A stretch of DNA of 38,202 bases from an uncultured Rubrobacteraceae bacterium (lineage in GTDB: Bacteria > Actinomycetota > Rubrobacteria > Rubrobacterales > Rubrobacteraceae): positions 1 to 38,202 of the forward strand of contig CADCVE010000046.1 of NCBI GenBank assembly GCA_902806065.1. Reading direction: 5' to 3'. The notes beneath the pieces are model-generated. The model had not been told where the DNA came from and made no database searches. It worked only from the letters and a program-made list of their open reading frames with translations. Below, piece by piece: positions 1-20,486 of the stretch (position 1 is the stretch's first letter; each line of letters starts with the position of its first letter). The position numbers were made by a program, and so were the translations under genes.

Positions 1-1
1 C

Positions 2-232
2 TCGTGGGTCAAGATGGGCTCCGAGGGGGCGAAGCTGTGCCTGGAGGCCGGCTGCAACGACCTCGGCGGTACGCTGATGAACGAGAACATCTCCAGGGCG
101 GCCGGGGCGAGCCACGGCCAGGAGATGCTGCCCGAAGATCTAGAGCAGATGATTCGGGAGATCGGGCGTACCCCCCGTCGTCGCACCACGCTCTACGGTA
201 CGCCGGAGCGGGCATCTTACGTCTCGGGTTGA
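2..232 (+). CDS. FO synthase (CofH half or FbiC), C-terminal end, partial
   Basis: The frame is open from the window edge and ends at TGA 230-232, giving about 76 residues. The stretch with [17 protein letters not shown] is the signature near the C-terminus of the CofH half of FO synthase. This radical-SAM enzyme makes the deazaflavin chromophore of coenzyme F420 from tyrosine and a flavin-pathway intermediate. The catalytic CxxxCxxC region lies outside the window, so a separate CofH cannot be told from a fused FbiC. cofD and cofC-cofE lie about 18 kb downstream, and a likely dehydro-F420-0 reductase lies at 2609-3670, so most F420 genes cluster here. The convergent protoglobin gene ends 10 bp away. 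Confidence 0.85.
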
Positions 233-242
233 GTAGGCGCCC

Positions 243-713
243 CTAGCTCGCGGGCGCCTGGTAGGGAAGCAGCATGGGATCCAGGTGTGCGGTAAGCAGC
301 TTCATCCAGGCACCGGCCTCCGCCTCCTTCTCTGATCTGTCGCTCGCAAGAAGCGCCGAGGTAATGGTTCCCTGCACCCACCCTATGAGATGCACGATCT
401 GATAGGAGGGCACCCCGTAATCTCTATGAACCTTTCCTACCCGCACCAAATAATCCCAGTACTGTTCGTTTTGGGGACCTTCTATGGTACGGGTTAGCCA
501 GGAGACGAGCGACTGCTTGCGGTGCTGAATATCCTGAGTCTCAAAGAAACCTCGGGTCTCCGGCAGAGAGAACAAATGATCGTAAAGCGCATCCAGCACC
601 GCGGGGACCAACGGTCCTAGATACTCCGCGCTTCGTTGGATGTGTTCAGGATCCGCGGAGCCGAATCCAGAGATTTCGAACCCTCGCATCTCACCTGCAC
701 GCTCCGCTTGCAT
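243..713 (-). CDS. Protoglobin-like single-domain heme protein
   Basis: The 156-residue product matches the globin domain of globin-coupled sensors and protoglobins. It has the early helix pattern LGPLVPAVLDALYDHLFS followed by the F-helix region VGKVHRDYGVPSY, whose histidine is the expected proximal heme ligand. No HAMP, GGDEF or methyl-accepting domain follows, so this is a stand-alone protoglobin rather than a full sensor. Family members bind O2, NO or CO; the role here is not known. A second ATG at residue 9 is an alternative start. It is transcribed alone, with about 220 bp upstream in which I see no clear element. Confidence 0.75.
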   Translation of the reverse strand: MQAERAGEMRGFEISGFGSADPEHIQRSAEYLGPLVPAVLDALYDHLFSLPETRGFFETQDIQHRKQSLVSWLTRTIEGPQNEQYWDYLVRVGKVHRDYGVPSYQIVHLIGWVQGTITSALLASDRSEKEAEAGAWMKLLTAHLDPMLLPYQAPAS

Positions 714-10808: not shown

Positions 10809-11597
10809 CTAGCTCAAAAGAAGCCGCGCGCCGACGAAGAGGAGCATTATGGCGAGGACGACGGTGAGGGGCTTGCCCGGCAGACGCGGGGCGAGCCGGC
10901 TACCGACGAGGACGCCGGGGATACTACCCAGGAGGAGTAGACCCGCGAGGCGGAGGTCTACGTTGCCGTTGTACAGGTGCGCGAAGCCGGTAACAAGCGA
11001 GAGAACGGTGGCGTGGGCGATATCGGTGCCGACCACGATAGCCGGTGCGAGCGGGTAGAGCAGGAGCAGTATGACGGCCATTACGCTACCGCTCCCTATC
11101 GACGTCAGGCCCACGAGGTAGCCCCCGGCCGCTCCGAAGAGGATGGTAAACAGGCGCCGCTTGAGGCTCATGGAGGTCTTACCGTCCCAGGTAGTCTTGC
11201 GACTCCGGGTCCAGCGTTCCGGCAGGAAGGCTTTGAAGATCAGCGAAGCGCCGACGAGGACGAGAGTAGCGGCGATGAGAGTGATCAGGATATCCCGCAC
11301 CGTGTCGGCGTCGTAGGAGGCCTGTATCCACTCTAGCGTCCACACCCCGAGCAGGCTCGCCGGGATACTCCCGATCCCCAGAAAGATCGCGACCTCCAAG
11401 TTGACCGAACGTTGGCGGTAATGCTGTACCGACCCGGTCATTTTCGTCACGGTCGCGAAGACCATGTCCGTCCCGATCGCCGTGGGCGCGGGGACTTGCA
11501 TAACCGCAACCAGAAACGGCGTCATCAGGGACCCGCCCCCTACCCCCGTGAGGCCTACCAGAAACCCGACGAGCAGGCCAAAAAGTACGGGGACCAA
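10809..11597 (-). CDS. TauE/SafE family sulfite/organosulfur permease
   Basis: The 262-residue integral membrane protein has two related halves, each with a Gly-rich motif (GLTGVGGGSLMTPFL at the N-terminus; GLTSIGSGSVMAVIL in the middle), as in the TauE/SafE (DUF81) family. The family is linked to export or uptake of sulfite, sulfoacetate and related anions. It is the last gene of the sulfate operon, 17 bp after cysC. It could be the sulfate/sulfite carrier or a safety exporter for toxic sulfite. The apparent start is TTG 11597. Confidence 0.82.
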   Translation of the reverse strand: MVPVLFGLLVGFLVGLTGVGGGSLMTPFLVAVMQVPAPTAIGTDMVFATVTKMTGSVQHYRQRSVNLEVAIFLGIGSIPASLLGVWTLEWIQASYDADTVRDILITLIAATLVLVGASLIFKAFLPERWTRSRKTTWDGKTSMSLKRRLFTILFGAAGGYLVGLTSIGSGSVMAVILLLLYPLAPAIVVGTDIAHATVLSLVTGFAHLYNGNVDLRLAGLLLLGSIPGVLVGSRLAPRLPGKPLTVVLAIMLLFVGARLLLS

Positions 11598-11614: not shown

Positions 11615-12193
11615 TCAGGACACCTGGCGACCGTATTCCTTGACCGGCTGCAGGTATCCGAACTCTTCGAGCTTCGCGATGACCTTCTTCGCGCTATCCG
11701 CCGGCTCCTCCTCGTTCGTCCTCAGGGTGAGTTCGGGTGCGGCCGGCGGCTCGTAGGGGTCGGAGACGCCGGTAAACTGCGGTATCTCCCCGGAGTACGC
11801 CTTCTTGTACAGGCCCTTTACGTCGCGCTCGGCACACACCTCGACCGGAGCGTCCACAAAGATCTCGATAAAGCCGTCCCCGACCTCACGGCGCACCTGG
11901 TCGCGCACCTCCTTGAACGGCGAGATGGCCGAGACGATCACACCCACACCGTTGCGTGTGAGCAGGTTGGCGACGAACCCGATCCGGAGTACGTTCGTGT
12001 CCCGGTCCTCGCGCGAGAAGCCGAGCCCCTTGGAGAGGTTCGTCCGCACGATATCCCCGTCCAAAACCTCGACGCTGCCGATGCGCTCGCGTAGCTCGTG
12101 CTCGACGATCTCCGCAACCGTCGTCTTGCCGGCCCCCGAAAGACCCGTAAACCACAAGGTAAAGCCGCGATCCAGCTTGTTCCCATTCTCCAT
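11615..12193 (-). CDS. cysC: Adenylylsulfate kinase CysC
   Basis: The 192-residue enzyme phosphorylates APS to PAPS with ATP. The Walker A motif GLSGAGKTT lies at about residues 17-25. The family motifs DGDIVRTNLSKGLGFSREDR, FVDAPVEVCAERDVKGLY and GVSDPYEPP are all present. Length is typical of a stand-alone kinase. The start ATG 12193 has GGGAGGATT upstream. The gene lies between sat and the TauE/SafE gene. Its presence means the operon can make PAPS as well as APS, which bears on which substrate the unusual CysH uses. Confidence 0.93.
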   Translation of the reverse strand: MENGNKLDRGFTLWFTGLSGAGKTTVAEIVEHELRERIGSVEVLDGDIVRTNLSKGLGFSREDRDTNVLRIGFVANLLTRNGVGVIVSAISPFKEVRDQVRREVGDGFIEIFVDAPVEVCAERDVKGLYKKAYSGEIPQFTGVSDPYEPPAAPELTLRTNEEEPADSAKKVIAKLEEFGYLQPVKEYGRQVS

Positions 12194-12224: not shown

Positions 12225-13409
12225 TTACTTAGCTTGCGCCCGAAGCCCTTCTATAAGGACCTCGACTACCTCGGGGCGGCTGAACTCCGGCGGCGGATAC
12301 TCGCCCCGGGCCAGCATCTCCCGCACCTTCGTCCCGCTGAAGAAGACGTGCGCCTCGGACTCATGAGGGCAGGTCTTGGTAGTCGCCATACCACCGCAGT
12401 TGAGGCAGAAGAACGAATGCTCGAACATGAGCGGCGTGATGCCCAACTCCCCGTCCTCGAACTCGTCAAAGATATGCTGCGCGTCATAGGTACCGTAATA
12501 GCTTCCTACCCCGGCATGGTCGCGGCCAACGATGAAGTGCGTGCAACCGTAGTTCTTGCGGCAGATGGCGTGGAAGATAGCCTCGCGCGGCCCCGCGTAA
12601 CGCATCGCCGCCGGAAAGACCGCGAGTACCGTCCGCTGCTTGGGATAGTAACGATCAAGGATGGTCTCGTAAGAGCGCATCCGAACGTCAGCCGGGATGT
12701 CGTCGGACTTGGTCTCGCCGACCAGCGGGTTTAGCAGGAGGCCGTCCACGGTTTCGAGGGCGCTCTTCTGGATGTATTCGTGGGCGCGGTGAACGGGGTT
12801 GCGGGTCTGGAATCCAACCACCCGCCTCCAACCTCTCTCGGCAAAGACCGCTCGTAGCTCCCGCGGCTCGTAGTAGTAGCCGGGGAACGGCCTCGGGTTG
12901 GGACTCTCGACGAGCAACGTCACCTCGCCGCCGACCAGAGTATTCCCCTGCCGGTACAACGCGGCCACGCCGGGATGGCTTCCATCCTCCGTGCGGTAAA
13001 CGGCCTTTGCCTCGTGGCCCTTGTCGTAGGAGTAGAGGTCCGTAATGGTAATCGTGGCGACTATACGACCTTCTCCGTCGGTAAGCGCCGCCTCTCCGCC
13101 TTCCTTTAGCCCGTTAGCCTCTTCATCGTTGGCGGAGAGGGTAATAGGCATACTCCACGCGAGACCGTTCGCCAAACGCATCGTATCGACGACCGACTCG
13201 TAGTCCTCCCGGCCCATAAAGCCGGTCAGCGGGCTGAAGACGCCGGTCGAGATCATCTCCAGATCCGAGAGAGCACGCGCGCCTACCGCGACCTTTGGCA
13301 ACTCCCCGGCCTTCTCCAGCCTCCCGGCCCGCTCACCTTCGGGTACCCGACGGTCTATGATCTCCCCGCCGTGCGGCGCTATCGCCGTGTACTCCGTCGC
13401 GGACTTCAT
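12225..13409 (-). CDS. sat: Sulfate adenylyltransferase (ATP sulfurylase)
   Basis: The 394-residue enzyme activates sulfate with ATP to APS and pyrophosphate. It has the N-terminal PUA-like part and the catalytic part with [11 protein letters not shown] (sulfate/ATP site) and [12 protein letters not shown]-terminal cysteine and histidine set (CLNCGG...CPHE) is also seen in prokaryotic Sat. I start at ATG 13409, which overlaps the stop of the preceding small gene by four bases (ATGA); the open frame continues to 13544 without homology. This is the monomer-type Sat, not the CysD/CysN pair. Confidence 0.94.
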
Positions 13410-13774
13410 CGGCCCGCTCCGCAAGAGGCGAGCTCCTGGCTCTGGTTCTTGTCCCGCCGGATATCCCGCTGGGGCAAACGCCTGAGGACGCGACCGGCGA
13501 GGCCGGCGACGCAGTGGTTCCAGGGACGCTCGCCCACGACCCACAGTCTTATCTCACCGGAGTAGCCGCGCGTGATCTCATCGAACCTCTCGCGTTCCAT
13601 ACCAGCCTCCAGGAGCTCCGCCCCCCACTCCTCCCACAGAAGTTCGGCTAGAGGGTGCCCGGCTTTTATGAGACGGTTGCCCTCTTCCGGGTCCTCTTCG
13701 AGAAAGGCGCGCGTCTCGGCGCGTAGCTCCCGGGGATCATCGGGCGGCATGAGTTTTTCGCGTGGATCAGCCAC
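13406..13774 (-). CDS. Small uncharacterised protein of the sulfate operon
   Basis: The 122-residue product starts with GTG 13774, directly abutting the stop of the FrhB-like gene. Its stop overlaps the sat start by four bases, so it is clearly co-translated. The N-terminal two thirds are acidic and helical ([18 protein letters not shown]); the middle reads [22 protein letters not shown]. The C-terminal 35 residues are basic and Arg-rich. There are two cysteines and no recognisable motif, signal or membrane segment. The position suggests a role with the F420 oxidoreductase and sulfite reductase, such as an assembly or adaptor protein, but this is only context. Confidence 0.75.
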
Positions 13775-14974
13775 TTAATACCTCACAGCGTCGTGTTCGA
13801 CCGGGGCCCGATCCGTCCCGGAGTAGTTCTCCAGGTGCTCCTCGAAGTCTATGAATAGAGGAGCGTCGGGGTCAAAAGCCCTCTTGAGGCTCTTGAACGC
13901 CACCCGCTTGTTCAAGGTGTCTAGCTTATCCAATGCTTGCGGCTTGTCAAGCTCGCGCATCTCCAGTTTCTCGCGCACATACTCGAACGCCGCCAAACCT
14001 TCGTCTGTACGAACGATGATGCTGGAGTATCCATCGGCGCTCCCGACGCTCCCGACGGAGATGTCAGCCGCGTGGCCCATGAAGTCCGCGCACTCGTCAC
14101 AGCCCTTGAGCGCGGCGCCGTGGAAGTCCCGGATCGGCTCCTCGAAGATCGTCTCCCCGTCGAGGTCTTGCACGATCATCTTCCCGCGGATGATGTCCAC
14201 GCGCCCCACATTATCCAGGTCCACGTCCCTCTTGTCCCGGATCTCCTCCAGCATCAACTTCTCGTAGTTGAAGCTCTTTGTGCACAGCAACGCAACGGTC
14301 AGCGTGATCGCCTCGACCTGCGAAGAGCCCCACGTCCACGGCCGCGCCTGCATGGCCTTTATCCCCTCGACCTCGCACGGAGTCCCAACGACAGCTATCC
14401 GGGGATTCGGCGGCAGATCGTAGCCCTTGAAGTCCACGTGACCGAGCGCGAGCGTCTGGTTGTAGAAGCTACCGGCGCACTCACGGACTTCTTCCGGCGT
14501 GGTCGCGAGGAACGGCTCGCCCTTCCACCGCTCTGTCTCGCTCTCGCGGGCGACGAGGGCTCCGTCGATCTCACCGGCTTCGAGCAGGGAGATCAAGAGC
14601 GCACTCACCACCCCGCCGTCCTGAACTCCTTCTATCATCGGGTTCACCCGCGCCGTGTAACTCTCCTCGACGTGCCCGATCCCCTCCAGCGTACGTGCCT
14701 CGGCATTGCCCACGATCTTCCACGTATTCTCATACTGAAGCCCACCGCGAGGACAAAAGTCCCAGCACAAAGAGCATCCAGTGCACATCTTCACTAGTGT
14801 CGGCAGGTCATCCTCTCCGATGCCGATTGAATCGGTCGGACAAGCGGCGACACACACACCGCACTGCACACACCGGTCTGCATCAATGACGGCCTTCTCC
14901 AGGCTCCAGAACCAGACCTTCCCGGGGGGCTCGTCTATGTCGCTCATCATGTCCCGGATATCAAAGCCGGCCAT
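13775..14974 (-). CDS. FrhB/FpoF-like coenzyme F420 oxidoreductase with two 4Fe-4S clusters
   Basis: The 399-residue protein belongs to the coenzyme F420 hydrogenase/dehydrogenase beta-subunit family. Residues 35-45 (CVQCGVCVAACP) and 64-74 (CTGCSLCWDFCP) are two ferredoxin-type 4Fe-4S motifs. The following FrhB domains carry GVVSALLISLLE, VVGTPCEVEGIKAMQ and GCDECADF, which in relatives bind FAD, a further cluster and F420. The domain order matches the N-terminal half of archaeal F420-dependent sulfite reductase Fsr. The gene abuts the sulfite reductase gene with no gap. The likely role is to oxidise F420H2 and pass electrons to the reductase. Confidence 0.85.
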   Translation of the reverse strand: MAGFDIRDMMSDIDEPPGKVWFWSLEKAVIDADRCVQCGVCVAACPTDSIGIGEDDLPTLVKMCTGCSLCWDFCPRGGLQYENTWKIVGNAEARTLEGIGHVEESYTARVNPMIEGVQDGGVVSALLISLLEAGEIDGALVARESETERWKGEPFLATTPEEVRECAGSFYNQTLALGHVDFKGYDLPPNPRIAVVGTPCEVEGIKAMQARPWTWGSSQVEAITLTVALLCTKSFNYEKLMLEEIRDKRDVDLDNVGRVDIIRGKMIVQDLDGETIFEEPIRDFHGAALKGCDECADFMGHAADISVGSVGSADGYSSIIVRTDEGLAAFEYVREKLEMRELDKPQALDKLDTLNKRVAFKSLKRAFDPDAPLFIDFEEHLENYSGTDRAPVEHDAVRY

Positions 14975-16612
14975 CTAGCCTCGCCCCCTGTTCCTGCCCG
15001 CGCTCCGCAACGTCGCCCGCAACTCCTTGTTCGGCTTCCGACGCGCCCACTCGTGGAACCGCTCGCCCTCCCGGCGCTCGTCCTCGAACTTCTCGAAGAC
15101 CGCGACCAGTGCCTCCGGTACGTCGTCGGCGGGCTTCGCGCCCTCCACCCAGTCTATAAATGCCGCGTCACGGCCGAGCGAACCACCGAGGCCGATGTCC
15201 ACGCCCTCGACGAGGGCGTCCTTCGTCTTCGCGGTCTCGCCACGGAAGCCGATGTCCCCGATCTGGGGCTGAGCGCAAGAGGCGGAGCAGCCCGAGAAGT
15301 GCATGCGTATAGCCTCCTGGCCTACGTCTCCGACCTTCTCGTCCATCTCCCGTGCCCACTCCACCGCCCGGATCTTGGTCTCCACGATCCCGAACCGGCA
15401 GAACTCACTGCCCGTACACGCCACTACCCCGCGCTCGAAAGCCCCGGGGTTCGGCGAGTACCGCTCCAGCAACGGCTCCGCGAGGAACTCGTCCAGCCGC
15501 TCCTCCGAGACCCCGGTAACGATGAAGTTCTGGTCGGTGGCGAGACGTATCTCACCGCCATACTCCCCTGCGAGCCGCGCCGCCTCAACGAAGTGCTCGC
15601 CGCTCATCCGCCCGACCGGCACGTTGAGCCCGACATAGTACAGCCCGTCTTCCTTCTGTGGATGAACTCCGATGTGATCGCCCCGGTAGTGCTTGGTGAG
15701 GTCTTCGCCCGCGGGTGTAAGCTCGAAGCTGGTACGCTTCTCAAGCTCTTCGCGGAAGCCTTCGGGGCCGAGTTCCTGGACGAGGTAGCGCATACGGGCC
15801 GTCCAGCGGTTCTCGCGGTCGCCGAGCTCGCCGAAGACCTGGGCGATGCCGCGTGTGATCTCCACGGCCTCCTCGGGCCTGACGAAGACATCTATATCCG
15901 ATGCCATCCTCGGCCCGTCCGAGAGCCCGCCGCCGACGCGCAGGTTAAAGCCCAGCGTGCCGTCTTCGAGGCGCGCGGGGAGCAGACCGATGTCGTTGAT
16001 CTCCGCCTGCGCGCAGTCCTCGACGCAGCCGGTTACGCTGAGCTTGAACTTTCTTGGCAGGTTGGCGTACTCGCGGTTTCCGGTGAAGTAGTCGGAGATC
16101 TCCTGGGCCACCGGGTATGCGTCGAGTATCTCGTCGTGGCCGAGACCGGAGACGGGACAGGAGAGGACGTTGCGGGCGGAGTCGCCGCAGGCCTGGACTG
16201 TGGTCATCCCAACCTCTTCGAGCCTGCGCCAGATCTCCGGGACGTCCTCCATGCGGATCCAGTGCATCTGCACGTCCTGGCGCGTGGTCAAGTCCAGGAA
16301 GTTGTTCCCGAAGTGCGGGTTGGAGATAGGGCCGTTCGCGAAGTCCACCGCTATCTGTCCTATTACCTCCGCCTGCTCGGGGCTCAGGACGCCGCCGGGG
16401 ATTTTCATGCGGATCATGAACGCGTCTCCGCCCTGCTTCTGCGGATAGATTCCGACCCACTTGAGCCGCTCTACCTCACCCGGCACGTCGTCCATCGTGG
16501 AGAGGTCCTTGGAGTAGCGGTCGATGACCGCCTCGCGCACCTCCAGCGGGTGGCGCTCCAGCTTGAGCCGCTCTACCCTATTGAGCTTCTGGTTCTTTCT
16601 AAGAATCTCCAC
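14975..16612 (-). CDS. Siroheme 4Fe-4S sulfite (or nitrite) reductase, ferredoxin type
   Basis: The 545-residue enzyme has two nitrite/sulfite reductase repeats. The siroheme/4Fe-4S ligands are C399 and C405 (CTGSEFC) and C442 and C446 (CSASC). The N-terminal repeat has SVTGCVEDCAQAEIND. It performs the six-electron reduction of sulfite to sulfide, or nitrite to ammonia. The operon with cysH, sat and cysC strongly favours sulfite. No NADPH flavoprotein (CysJ) is present; the adjacent FrhB-like gene is the obvious electron donor. The GTG start at 16612 overlaps the end of cysH by 14 bp. Confidence 0.9.
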   Translation of the reverse strand: MEILRKNQKLNRVERLKLERHPLEVREAVIDRYSKDLSTMDDVPGEVERLKWVGIYPQKQGGDAFMIRMKIPGGVLSPEQAEVIGQIAVDFANGPISNPHFGNNFLDLTTRQDVQMHWIRMEDVPEIWRRLEEVGMTTVQACGDSARNVLSCPVSGLGHDEILDAYPVAQEISDYFTGNREYANLPRKFKLSVTGCVEDCAQAEINDIGLLPARLEDGTLGFNLRVGGGLSDGPRMASDIDVFVRPEEAVEITRGIAQVFGELGDRENRWTARMRYLVQELGPEGFREELEKRTSFELTPAGEDLTKHYRGDHIGVHPQKEDGLYYVGLNVPVGRMSGEHFVEAARLAGEYGGEIRLATDQNFIVTGVSEERLDEFLAEPLLERYSPNPGAFERGVVACTGSEFCRFGIVETKIRAVEWAREMDEKVGDVGQEAIRMHFSGCSASCAQPQIGDIGFRGETAKTKDALVEGVDIGLGGSLGRDAAFIDWVEGAKPADDVPEALVAVFEKFEDERREGERFHEWARRKPNKELRATLRSAGRNRGRG

Positions 16613-17366
16613 GTACAGCCTTCCCTGCTACCCAGTGCAGTCCACACTCCGTCTTCTCCATGCCCGACCAGCGCCCGGCCCGCGGATCCTCGTCCCGCGA
16701 CACCGGACGGGTCTGAGGCTCGCAGCCGATGCTCTTGTAGCCCTTCTTCAGCAGCGGGTTGACGGGAACGTTGTGCTCGGCCACGTACTCGTGGACCCAC
16801 TCCTCGGTCATAGAGGCGAACGGGGCGAACTTGGCGGCCCCGAACCGCTCCTCCCACGCGACGATCCTGGTGTTGGCCCGCTGCGGCGTCTGGTCCCGGC
16901 GTATGCCGGTCATCCACGCGTCGTAGCCCGCGAGCGCCCTCTCCAGAGGCTCTATCTTACGCACCTGGCAGCAGAGATCCGGATTACAAGTCCTCATCCG
17001 CTCCCCGTACCTCTCGACCTGCTCCTCGATAGTGAGCTTCGGACGCAAGACCTCCAACGGCAGCTTGTAACGCCGCATGAACTCCTCGCGAAACTCAGTA
17101 GTCTCCTTGAAGAGGAAGCCCGTATCTATAGTAAGGACCGTAACCTCGTCGGTTATCTTGGAGACCATGTCTATAAGAGCCATCCCCTCGGGACCACCGA
17201 AGGAGGCCGATAACGCGAGCCTATTACCATAGGTCTCCACCGCCCACTCCAGTATCCTTTGGGGCGACGCACCCTCCAGATGCTCCGCCTCCCACGCAAG
17301 CTCCCACGGACCAGGAAGCGCATCCGGACTGCCAAAATGCCGCTCAGAACGCACGGTTTTAAACAT
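16599..17366 (-). CDS. cysH: APS/PAPS reductase CysH with an altered cluster ligand
   Basis: The 255-residue enzyme reduces APS or PAPS to sulfite. The nucleotide-binding SASFGG (residues 53-58), the Cys pair 132-133, C215 and the catalytic C241 (ECGLH) are present. APS reductases bind a 4Fe-4S cluster with CC plus CxxC. Here the second motif reads C215-E-P-Q218 followed by TRP, so the fourth ligand is glutamine (CAG at 16713-16715). A Cys-to-Gln change needs three base changes, so a single sequencing error is unlikely. ATG 17366 is preceded by GAGGAGGGAG. It is the first gene of the sulfate operon. Confidence 0.92.
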   Translation of the reverse strand: MFKTVRSERHFGSPDALPGPWELAWEAEHLEGASPQRILEWAVETYGNRLALSASFGGPEGMALIDMVSKITDEVTVLTIDTGFLFKETTEFREEFMRRYKLPLEVLRPKLTIEEQVERYGERMRTCNPDLCCQVRKIEPLERALAGYDAWMTGIRRDQTPQRANTRIVAWEERFGAAKFAPFASMTEEWVHEYVAEHNVPVNPLLKKGYKSIGCEPQTRPVSRDEDPRAGRWSGMEKTECGLHWVAGKAVRGDS

Positions 17367-17608: not shown

Positions 17609-18994
17609 CTACCGGAACAGGTCTCTTTCGGGCGGCATGAGCAGGTCGTGGGCAGTCCCGGAGCCTTTCTCGTAAGGGTAGTTGCGTATGACGGCGATGG
17701 GGACGCCTATAGTCTTGCCCATTACGAGCTCGGCGGTGGCGGCCAGCTCGTCGGCGACTGCGAGGATGCTGGCGGTAAGGAGATTGCCGTAAGGGTCGGT
17801 CTCGCCGCGATAGTCAGCGAGGGGTTGCATACCGGCGACGCCGATGGCGATGTTGGTGATGCCTTGACGCCACGCCCGTCCGAAAGAGTCCGAGACGACG
17901 ACGGCGAGGTCTTTTCCTGACTTTGCAACCAAGGCGTCACGCAGGCGTTGGGCGGAGGCGTCGGGGTCGAGGGGCAGAAGGCAGACGGTATCGTCGCCGG
18001 GGACGTTGGAGGCGTCCACGCCGGCGTTCGCGCAGACGAAGCCGTGGTGCGTCTCGGAGATGATGATGCCGCGGTCCATGCGTACGATGCGCTTGCTCTC
18101 GCGCAAAACCACCTCGACCTGGCGTGGGTCCTTGTCGTAGCGGGAGGCGAAGGCTTTAGCAAACGCCGACGGTTCGACTGTCCCGAGGTCGATCAGACGC
18201 CCTTCGGCCTTGCTCACAACCTTGTGGGTCACCACCACGATGTCGCCGTCCTGCAGGCCGTTCCTCACAGTCCCGGCGATAAGTGCCGCGAGGTCGTCGC
18301 CCGGCCGGACCTCTGGAAGGCCCGTCACGGGCAGCACCCGCAACTCCTCTGAGGAGGATTCGCTGTGTTGCGAGCTGGTCTCCACGCGTGCGCCGGGTAT
18401 CGCGTCGCCGAAGCGTCCGAGATCTTCGACGGTGTCGAGGTCGAAGGCGAGTCCGTCCCGCTCGCGGATGCAGGCCGGGGTGCCGCGCTCCCGGGCCGCG
18501 TTCAGGTGAGCCTCGAAGCTACCCGGGCCGAAGAGGAACGGCAGGGCGTGCGGCGGGCGCAAGAGGAGGGCGTTCGTGCCCGTGCCCGCCGCGTCCGGTG
18601 AGATCGCCGCTAGCGATCCTTCCGCCTCCTCAGCCAGTACCTCCAGGACTGCCTCGACGTCCGCCGACCGCAGAAGCGGCAGGTCGGCCGGGAGGACGAG
18701 CAAGGACGTCGCCCCTCTCTCGACCGCCCATCCTCTTGCTTCTTCGAGCGCCTCGTTCAGGCCCCGGCTCTGTTGAGGGAGCAGTATCGCGCCTGCTTTC
18801 CCAGCGGTCTGTAGGACTTTGCGGTCCGGGCTTATGACGCAGATGCGTTCTACTCCGGCCTCCCGGAGTGCCGCGAGGACGTTGTTCATCATGTGCAGTG
18901 TCAGGCTGGCCCTGTCGGCGCCGTCGAGGACAGGCTGGAGCCGGCTCTTGGTGTATGCCAGGTCTTTTACCGGCACTATTGCGAAGAGCGTCAT
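17609..18994 (-). CDS. Fused CofC/FbiD guanylyltransferase and CofE F420-0:gamma-glutamyl ligase
   Basis: The 461-residue protein joins two F420 enzymes. Residues about 1-200 are CofC/FbiD (VPVKDLAYTKSRL, LVLPADLPLL, GTGTNALLLRPP), which activates a phospholactate-type precursor with GTP. A Ser/Glu-rich linker follows at about 201-217. Residues about 218-461 are CofE (VVVTHKVVSKAEGRLIDL, VCANAGVDASN, VVVSDSFGRAWRQG), which adds glutamates to F420-0. In mycobacteria CofE is instead fused to the reductase of FbiB; here that reductase is at 2609-3670. ATG 18994 overlaps the cofD stop by four bases. Confidence 0.92.
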   Translation of the reverse strand: MTLFAIVPVKDLAYTKSRLQPVLDGADRASLTLHMMNNVLAALREAGVERICVISPDRKVLQTAGKAGAILLPQQSRGLNEALEEARGWAVERGATSLLVLPADLPLLRSADVEAVLEVLAEEAEGSLAAISPDAAGTGTNALLLRPPHALPFLFGPGSFEAHLNAARERGTPACIRERDGLAFDLDTVEDLGRFGDAIPGARVETSSQHSESSSEELRVLPVTGLPEVRPGDDLAALIAGTVRNGLQDGDIVVVTHKVVSKAEGRLIDLGTVEPSAFAKAFASRYDKDPRQVEVVLRESKRIVRMDRGIIISETHHGFVCANAGVDASNVPGDDTVCLLPLDPDASAQRLRDALVAKSGKDLAVVVSDSFGRAWRQGITNIAIGVAGMQPLADYRGETDPYGNLLTASILAVADELAATAELVMGKTIGVPIAVIRNYPYEKGSGTAHDLLMPPERDLFR

Positions 18995-19932
18995 ACGGTG
19001 TCCAGCTTCGAGCAGAGATTTAGGACCTCCCGCGCGAGGCGTCCCCGGTCGGGCTCGTCGCGCATCACCGCCTCCGTCGAGAGCACGCGCATCCCGAGGG
19101 CGGAGATGCTCGCCTCCTCGTTCTCATCGGCCCGGTCCATCACGAACCCGTCCACGAGCCCCTCGTACATCCGGGCGACGCCTGCGGCCGAGACTTCGTG
19201 ACCCAGGGACCTCAGCATCTCGTCCGCCGGGCCTTTGAGTGCCTTTCCGCCTATGATCGGGCTTACCGCGACCCTCGGTACGGGGCAGTTCGAGAGAAGT
19301 TCACGCATCTCCGGGACGGCGAGGATGGGGCCGATACTCACGACCGGATTCGAGGGGCAGAAGATTATCGCCTCAGCTTCAGAGACGGCGCTAGCGACCT
19401 CGACCGGGACGCGCGCTTTCTCTATACCGCGCAGCTCCACGCCGAGGACGTCGTCGCGCTGGCGGCGGCGGACGAAGTATTCCTGGAACTCCAGTAGTCC
19501 TTCCGGGGTTTCGAGCACGGTCGAGACGGGCTCGTCGCACATCGGCAGCAGCCTGTTGCGTATCCCGAGCGCGGCGGAGAGGTCGGCGGTTACCTGCGTG
19601 AGGGACATCCCGGCGCGGAGGCGTTGCGTGCGCAGGATATGGGTGGCGAGGTCGCGATCGCCGAGCTTGAACCAGGCGTCTTCTCCGTAGTCGGAGATCA
19701 TGGCGAGGGTATTGAAGGACTCGTCCGTAACGCCCCAGCCAGTCTCCCTGTTGGCGAGACCAGCGAGGGTGTACATCACCGTGTCGAGGTCCGGGCAGAT
19801 GCGCAGGCCCCACAGGTCGAAGTCGTCGGCCGTGTTCACGATGACCGAGAGATCTCCGGGCGGGAGGACGGCCTGAAGCCCCGCCGCGAGCTTCGCGCCG
19901 CCAACCCCGCCAGCAATGGCGCATACTCTCAC
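18991..19932 (-). CDS. cofD: CofD/FbiA phospholactate-type transferase
   Basis: The 313-residue enzyme transfers the activated C3-phospho moiety to FO, giving F420-0 or dehydro-F420-0. The N-terminus has [16 protein letters not shown], then [20 protein letters not shown], both diagnostic. [16 protein letters not shown] and [18 protein letters not shown] follow. I start at GTG 19932 because it overlaps the NUDIX stop (GTGA) and begins the conserved domain; the longer open frame to 20124 is unsupported. It is co-translated with cofC-cofE. Confidence 0.93.
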
Positions 19933-20486
19933 CCTTCCGCCCCGGTGAGAGTTGTGGTACGTCCGAGCATGTAGCTCATGATAGCAACGAGGCTGAGAGC
20001 GTCGGTGATCTCGCCGGAGAGAGCCATATCCAATGCTTCGCGCAGCGGGACGCGGCGGACGCTTAAAGCCTCCGTGCCCTCGGGCTGCTGTTTGCCGGGG
20101 ACGAGTCCGGTGGCGAGGAACCACACCGCGTACTCGTCCGCGACGGAGTTGGACAGGTATGCTTCTCCGAGTCTTTGCCAGTTTCTAGCTTCGAGACCGG
20201 TCTCTTCGCTCAGCTCGCGCTGGGCGGCACGCAGTGGTTCTTCGCCTTCCGGGCAGCCTCCTTCCGGTATCTCCCAGGAGTAGAGTCCAAGGGGGTAACG
20301 GTACTGTCCGACGAGATAGATGTGGTCTCCCTCTATAGGTAGGATGCCGACGGCGACGTTCTTGAAGTGTACGACGCCGTAGATGCCCGGCTCGCCGTCC
20401 GGACGGATGACTTGATCCTCGCGCACGGAGATCCAGGGGTTGTCGTAGACTTGCTCCGTCGAGACGATCCGCCACGGACCGCTCAT
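19929..20486 (-). CDS. NUDIX hydrolase, ADP-ribose pyrophosphatase-like
   Basis: The NUDIX box G-x5-E-x7-RE-x2-EE-x-G is complete at about residues 76-98 (GGCPEGEEPLRAAQREL then SEETGL). The rest of the protein matches ADP-sugar pyrophosphatases (GQYRYPLG, WEIPEGG). It should hydrolyse a nucleoside-diphosphate derivative with Mg2+. It is the first gene of the F420 operon, overlapping cofD by four bases, so it could act on a nucleotide by-product or as housekeeping; no direct link to F420 is established. ATG 20486 is chosen; GTG 20501 with GGAG 6 bp upstream is equally plausible. Confidence 0.82.
   Translation of the reverse strand: MSGPWRIVSTEQVYDNPWISVREDQVIRPDGEPGIYGVVHFKNVAVGILPIEGDHIYLVGQYRYPLGLYSWEIPEGGCPEGEEPLRAAQRELSEETGLEARNWQRLGEAYLSNSVADEYAVWFLATGLVPGKQQPEGTEALSVRRVPLREALDMALSGEITDALSLVAIMSYMLGRTTTLTGAEG

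Follow-up and report, generated by a model that had tools for sequence, protein, structure and literature searches.

Fsr of groups I and II, known from methanogens and ANME (7np8, 7npa), is built as one chain in which an FrhB-type F420H2 oxidase with an N-terminal two-cluster ferredoxin domain forms the N-terminal half and feeds a siroheme reductase, the latter being a single-repeat Dsr-like protein with an inserted ferredoxin domain. A two-subunit enzyme, aFsr, with an aSir-type alpha subunit and a beta subunit homologous to Fsr-N, was predicted from genomes in 2012 by Susanti and Mukhopadhyay; that paper describes aFsr for haloarchaea only, and the supplementary tree includes Rubrobacter xylanophilus Rxyl_0964 and a Thermobaculum protein (PMC3448663). 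Rxyl is also among the organisms of a 2022 alignment containing the aFsr-beta group, and no activity report for any aFsr was found in the literature searched. Two-cluster ferredoxin domains joined to an FrhB core occur furthermore in the zeta subunit of the F420-reducing CODH of Ca. Ethanoperedens and in FwdI (8riu_B, 8rja_E), both of which have been demonstrated to link their partner enzymes with F420.

The gene pair analysed here, from an uncultured soil actinobacterium of the Rubrobacteraceae, resembles aFsr in its two-repeat aSir-type siroheme reductase subunit, in its separate FrhB core with two N-terminal ferredoxin-type 4Fe-4S motifs, and in the adjacency of the two genes, which belong to the same lineage as the haloarchaeal pairs. 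It departs from aFsr, as far as the accessible description goes, by its actinobacterial sulfate-assimilation operon, the flanking cof genes and a small protein, ORF122. The proposal itself is not new, but a rediscovery of the published aFsr prediction with a sharper genomic case; new are the complete operon for sulfate assimilation with F420 genes on either side, the status of the reductase as the sole one detected, and the conserved ORF122.

The initial annotation had compared the pair with archaeal Fsr as a union of the same two kinds of module. This held for the Fsr-like FrhB half, but not for the reductase half, which is of the duplicated NirA/SirA type without a Fer4 domain (Pfam scan); moreover, instead of one chain there are two genes with a stop codon between them and the reductase first. 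With M. tuberculosis NirA/SirA (1zj8) the reductase shares the fold, the two repeats, the siroheme-cluster cysteines and the equivalent of Cys161 (C142), yet NirA is named ferredoxin-dependent, whereas here an FrhB-like candidate donor is encoded alongside. The partners of 8riu_B and 8rja_E are CODH or formylmethanofuran dehydrogenase, with electrons running toward F420, unlike in the proposed pair. Unlike NADPH sulfite reductase CysJI, the pair has no CysJ flavoprotein partner, as initially annotated: PF00667, the CysJ-type flavoprotein domain, was found genome-wide in none of 16 pair-bearing genomes, with E. coli and B. subtilis as positive controls.

Organisation of the locus

The window, i.e. 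the whole stretch of DNA that was analysed, comprised 38,202 nt (contig CADCVE010000046.1, positions 1-38,202, assembly GCA_902806065.1, uncultured Rubrobacteraceae bacterium); its relevant features are listed in Table 1. Genes are ordered cysH-SiR-FrhB-ORF122-sat-cysC-tauE, with cofC/cofE and cofD upstream on the same strand.

Table 1 Features of the sulfur and F420 genes in the window
Feature	Position	Strand	Basis
CofH/FbiC C-terminal fragment, left window edge	2..232	+	TIGR03551 partial match, 96 bits
TauE/SafE-family transporter, operon end	10809..11597	-	Pfam PF01925
cysC, APS kinase	11615..12193	-	NF002059/TIGR00455 above cut-off
sat, ATP sulfurylase	12225..13409	-	NF003166/TIGR00339 above cut-off
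ORF122, small conserved protein, GTG start right after FrhB stop, stop overlapping inferred sat start (ATGA)	13406..13774	-	conservation in Rubrobacteraceae loci and L061
FrhB-like, FrhB/FpoF/Fsr-N-like F420H2 dehydrogenase subunit, 399 aa including a 2x[4Fe-4S] domain at the N-terminus; candidate aFsr-beta	13775..14974	-	Pfam PF04432/PF04422/Fer4; best PDB relatives 8riu_B, 9tn7, Fsr 7np8, 8rja
SiR/FrhB stop/start junction TAG/ATG, no spacer, same frame in window	14972..14977	-	read from sequence
SiR, siroheme sulfite reductase subunit, NirA/SirA type, two repeats, 545 aa; candidate aFsr-alpha	14975..16612	-	Pfam NIR_SIR x2 and NIR_SIR_ferr x2; best PDB relatives plant NiR and M. tuberculosis NirA 1zj8
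cysH, PAPS/APS reductase	16599..17366	-	NF002537/TIGR00434 above cut-off
fused CofC-CofE, F420 biosynthesis, 461 aa	17609..18994	-	TIGR03552 and TIGR01916 above cut-off
cofD, 2-phospho-L-lactate transferase, F420 biosynthesis	18991..20124	-	TIGR01819 338.8 bits, cut-off 257

The initial annotation had placed both open reading frames of the pair correctly, including the minus strand and the gapless junction, at which the TAG of SiR is directly followed by the ATG of the FrhB-like gene (GGC TAG ATG GCC). Its sulfate-assimilation context was confirmed by Pfam and NCBIfam matches for cysH, sat and cysC, and its upstream F420 biosynthesis genes by family models for CofC, CofE and CofD. The cysH gene overlaps the SiR start by 14 nt. 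The start of sat is most likely the internal ATG at 13409, placed there because of the overlap with the ORF122 stop, although the longer ORF extends to 13544. Given these overlaps and abutments, from cysH over the SiR/FrhB junction and ORF122 to sat, the operon is tightly packed. Promoter matches (4 against 1.5 expected) and terminator matches (7 against 6.5 expected) did not give a firm operon boundary.

A natural single-chain fusion of SiR and FrhB, suspected from long open frames in three genomes (G009, G027, G077), was rejected, as SiR and FrhB occupy different frames in the loci that were read (L051, L061). Stop read-through was also rejected: at the junction in the window the two genes share a frame, interrupted by a single TAG, but in most relatives their frames differ, and the TAG was therefore taken as a real stop. 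CofC and CofE, fused in the window, are apparently also fused in L006 and L022, but many further loci of the family (L007-L010, L013, L023) have them as two genes. At the left edge, the CofH C-terminal fragment (window 1-247) is 97% identical to a complete copy located close to the end of a different contig of this assembly (C31), which suggests a strain mixture or an assembly break.

In nearly all loci of Rubrobacteraceae, and also in L061, ORF122 separates sat from the FrhB-like gene. Its homologues are about 100 aa long with many invariant W/G/R residues, and Pfam and PDB searches assigned it to no family. ORF122 is a possible third component of the enzyme.

Properties of the two subunits and proposed electron path

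Pfam models matched the FrhB-like protein for FrhB_FdhB_C (3e-34), FrhB_FdhB_N (8.5e-23) and 4Fe-4S dicluster domains, and its closest solved structures were the F420-reducing CODH subunit (8riu_B), 9tn7, Fsr and the F420-reducing Fwd subunit. Two 4Fe-4S motifs had been annotated initially; both N-terminal motifs (C35/38/41/45 and C64/67/70/74) were recovered, but the total is three sites, the third being formed by C200/231/292/295, and all 12 cysteines are invariant in 16 homologues. In FrhB, the F420 contacts comprise S209, V210 and the IGKGK turn (163-IGKGK), next to four core Fe-S cysteines (PMC3591093). By alignment, S209/V210 correspond to S309/V310, the turn to IIRGK at 261-265, and the core cysteines to C200/C231/C292/C295; one lysine of the turn is conservatively replaced by arginine in the window, while the last is kept in Rubrobacter and variable in some haloarchaeal homologues. 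Loss of the F420-site residues had been named beforehand as a finding that would speak against the reading; they are largely kept. Superposition of the AF2 core (about residues 100-360, mostly pLDDT above 70) on FrhB 4ci0_C gave a TMt of 0.84 and an rmsd of 2.2 Å. Some haloarchaeal FrhB-like partners (L073:6482-8200, L075:6479-8203) carry an N-terminal extension of about 170 aa with Cys-rich stretches and no Pfam match.

By sequence, SiR belongs to the ferredoxin-dependent NirA/SirA family, with a dedicated FrhB-like candidate donor adjoining; plant nitrite reductases and M. tuberculosis NirA (1zj8) were its closest solved relatives, Fsr being a remote match to part of the chain. The siroheme-cluster cysteines 399/405/442/446 and lysines K188 and K190 are invariant in its homologues, as is C142, which aligns with the active-site Cys161 of M. 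tuberculosis NirA, a position occupied by G or M in plant NiRs. According to its title, Schnell et al. 2005 deals with M. tuberculosis NirA as a sulfite reductase. The match of C142 to NirA and the operon genes sat, cysC and cysH jointly favour sulfite over nitrite as the likely substrate. Both PF01077 matches in this genome are the two repeats of the one SiR, so that no second siroheme reductase was detected in it, and the SiR is also the sole PF01077 protein in the complete single-contig genomes G016 and G027.

The pair is quite likely a two-subunit F420H2-dependent assimilatory sulfite reductase (aFsr), for which we infer complex formation, the use of FAD and F420, the electron path and the physiological role. 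The initial reading as an F420H2:sulfite oxidoreductase was correct in essence; it gained from the CysJ absence, the sole siroheme reductase and the assimilatory context, and lost its Fsr-kind reductase half. In its layout, the F420H2 oxidase half corresponds to that of the Fsr structure (PMC10229431). F420H2, formed with the aid of the neighbouring cof genes, would donate a hydride to FAD in the FrhB-like subunit, from where electrons would pass via the core cluster (C200/231/292/295) to the ferredoxin-domain clusters (C35-45, C64-74). The FrhB ferredoxin domain may dock on the NirA/SirA-type subunit at the site otherwise used by free ferredoxin, and electrons would be transferred from the FrhB-like subunit to this one, at whose siroheme-[4Fe-4S] centre sulfite would be converted to sulfide with six electrons. 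Sulfite would be supplied by Sat, CysC and CysH of the same operon, which would make the reaction the sulfite step of sulfate assimilation. AF2 prediction of the window read-through chain (TAG as Q, 23 rows) reached pLDDT 64 and pTM 0.55, too weak a model to reveal an interface; the ferredoxin domain was not resolved in it, nor in the other AF2 model, and no claim on an interface is therefore made.

Distribution of the pair and association with F420

The adjacent pair was sought in other genomes, as the initial annotation had proposed, and recurs in Rubrobacteraceae, in other actinobacterial families and in haloarchaea. Of 39 sampled Rubrobacteraceae, about 32 gave a near-complete match to the FrhB-like protein, and the same gene order was seen in the loci that were fetched, so that the arrangement is not due to chance. 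Among 396 actinobacterial genomes, the FrhB profile gave 31 positives, 24 of them Rubrobacteraceae and 7 from four further families; in one of the latter (G182) the match was partial and lay at a contig edge, and no SiR was seen. Outside Rubrobacteraceae, L061 contains a fused cysC-sat, cysH, SiR, FrhB and an ORF122 homologue, L064 contains cysH, SiR and FrhB, and L118 contains FrhB, SiR and cysH; in L025-L029, L119 and L120 the pair is present and adjoining sulfate genes were not recognised. At L118:1485-5147 (genome G194, family f8), two different NirA-type reductases flank cysH, only one of which adjoins the FrhB-like gene.

Five haloarchaeal plasmid loci carrying the pair were read (Salinirubellus, Haladaptatus, Haloferax mediterranei, Natronococcus, Halomontanus), with 47-59% identity in both subunits over near full length. 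The reductase is annotated as rhodanese-like in two of the five, with rhodanese domains where scanned; the N-terminal regions concerned (L077:4556-6955, L078:4338-6878) suggest a possible link to a sulfur carrier. SiR and FrhB distance matrices from 13 loci correlate at 0.96 (p = 0.0002) and the trees largely agree, the plasmid rows being left out of one alignment. To judge from these comparisons, SiR and the FrhB-like protein have travelled as a unit across Bacteria and Archaea.

The initial annotation had also called for a check of co-occurrence with cofD, and an association was found. The gene (TIGR01819) was present in 29 of 31 FrhB-profile-positive against 199 of 365 negative genomes (Fisher p = 6e-6, with genomes that are phylogenetically non-independent and Rubrobacteraceae forming one lineage); without Rubrobacteraceae the count was 7/7 (p about 0.02), and cofD is widespread among Actinomycetota, occurring in 58% of the sample. 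G009 and G015 are the two exceptions; their contigs break off within about 1-2 kb upstream of the place of cysH, before the position of cofD, so that all informative pair-bearing genomes have cofD. No pair-bearing genome was shown to be F420-negative, a finding that had been named beforehand as speaking against the reading. Among targeted genomes cofD was found in 12/12, and in a second set cofH in 12/12.

F420 genes adjoin the operon in most Rubrobacteraceae; outside this family, cof genes do not lie beside the pair. In G010, G012, G016, G024, G027 and G028, cofH was found on the opposite strand, about 7-15 kb downstream from the FrhB-like gene, which, with cofD, cofC and cofE upstream, means that F420 genes flank the sulfur operon on both sides. 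A search for the F420H2 source in Rubrobacter gave npdG absent or below cut-off and FGD-like matches below cut-off; that these customary F420-reducing enzymes were not clearly present counts against the proposed reading.

Alternative readings and meaning for the family

The FrhB-like protein might instead be a flavin/Fe-S adaptor that supplies SiR with electrons taken from reduced ferredoxin or NAD(P)H in place of F420H2. NirA-type reductases are normally ferredoxin-dependent, and FrhB-fold proteins without F420 use exist, among them HCAR (5dqr), a relative of FrhB that works with ferredoxin and was matched here by both sequence and fold; the GK lysine is also lost in some haloarchaeal homologues. 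However, the sequence is much closer to F420 enzymes (144 bits) than to the non-F420 HCAR (29 bits), in agreement with the fold search, and both the F420 genes beside the operon in most Rubrobacteraceae and the cofD of every informative pair-bearing genome speak against an adaptor, which is considered unlikely.

A role mainly as F420H2-dependent nitrite reductase, or activity on both anions without dedication to sulfite, is less probable still. The best NCBIfam model for SiR is ferredoxin-nitrite reductase PRK09566, below cut-off, the Natronococcus pair adjoins nosZ, and group II Fsr of ANME-2c sets a precedent as an F420-dependent nitrite reductase (PMC9295563), but Sat, CysC and CysH are encoded in the same operon, no siroheme reductase other than SiR was detected in the genome, and C142 matches the M. 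tuberculosis enzyme and not plant NiR. Very improbable is an incidental adjacency, in which SiR would use free ferredoxin and the FrhB-like protein would serve another F420 reaction; operon partners need not form one enzyme, and the joint AF2 model gave no interface, yet the two genes have remained neighbours in Bacteria and Archaea alike despite changes in the flanking genes, and their trees are largely congruent.

The pair provides a small, direct test of the aFsr prediction standing since 2012. To our knowledge, no bacterial F420H2-dependent sulfite reductase has been demonstrated so far, and the pair would be the first. If the proposal is true, FrhB-type F420H2 oxidases were joined to siroheme reductases at least two times in evolution, the reductase half being Dsr-like in Fsr and of the NirA type in aFsr. 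Chances are about even that sulfate assimilation in Rubrobacteraceae as such depends on F420, because the only sulfite reductase would be the proposed enzyme, which has two subunits, would require F420H2 and may include ORF122 as a third dedicated component. In bacteria, F420 is usually considered in the context of secondary metabolism, detoxification and sugar oxidation; here, if the proposal is true, a whole bacterial family would tie cysteine synthesis to F420, which would have an essential housekeeping role in Rubrobacteraceae.
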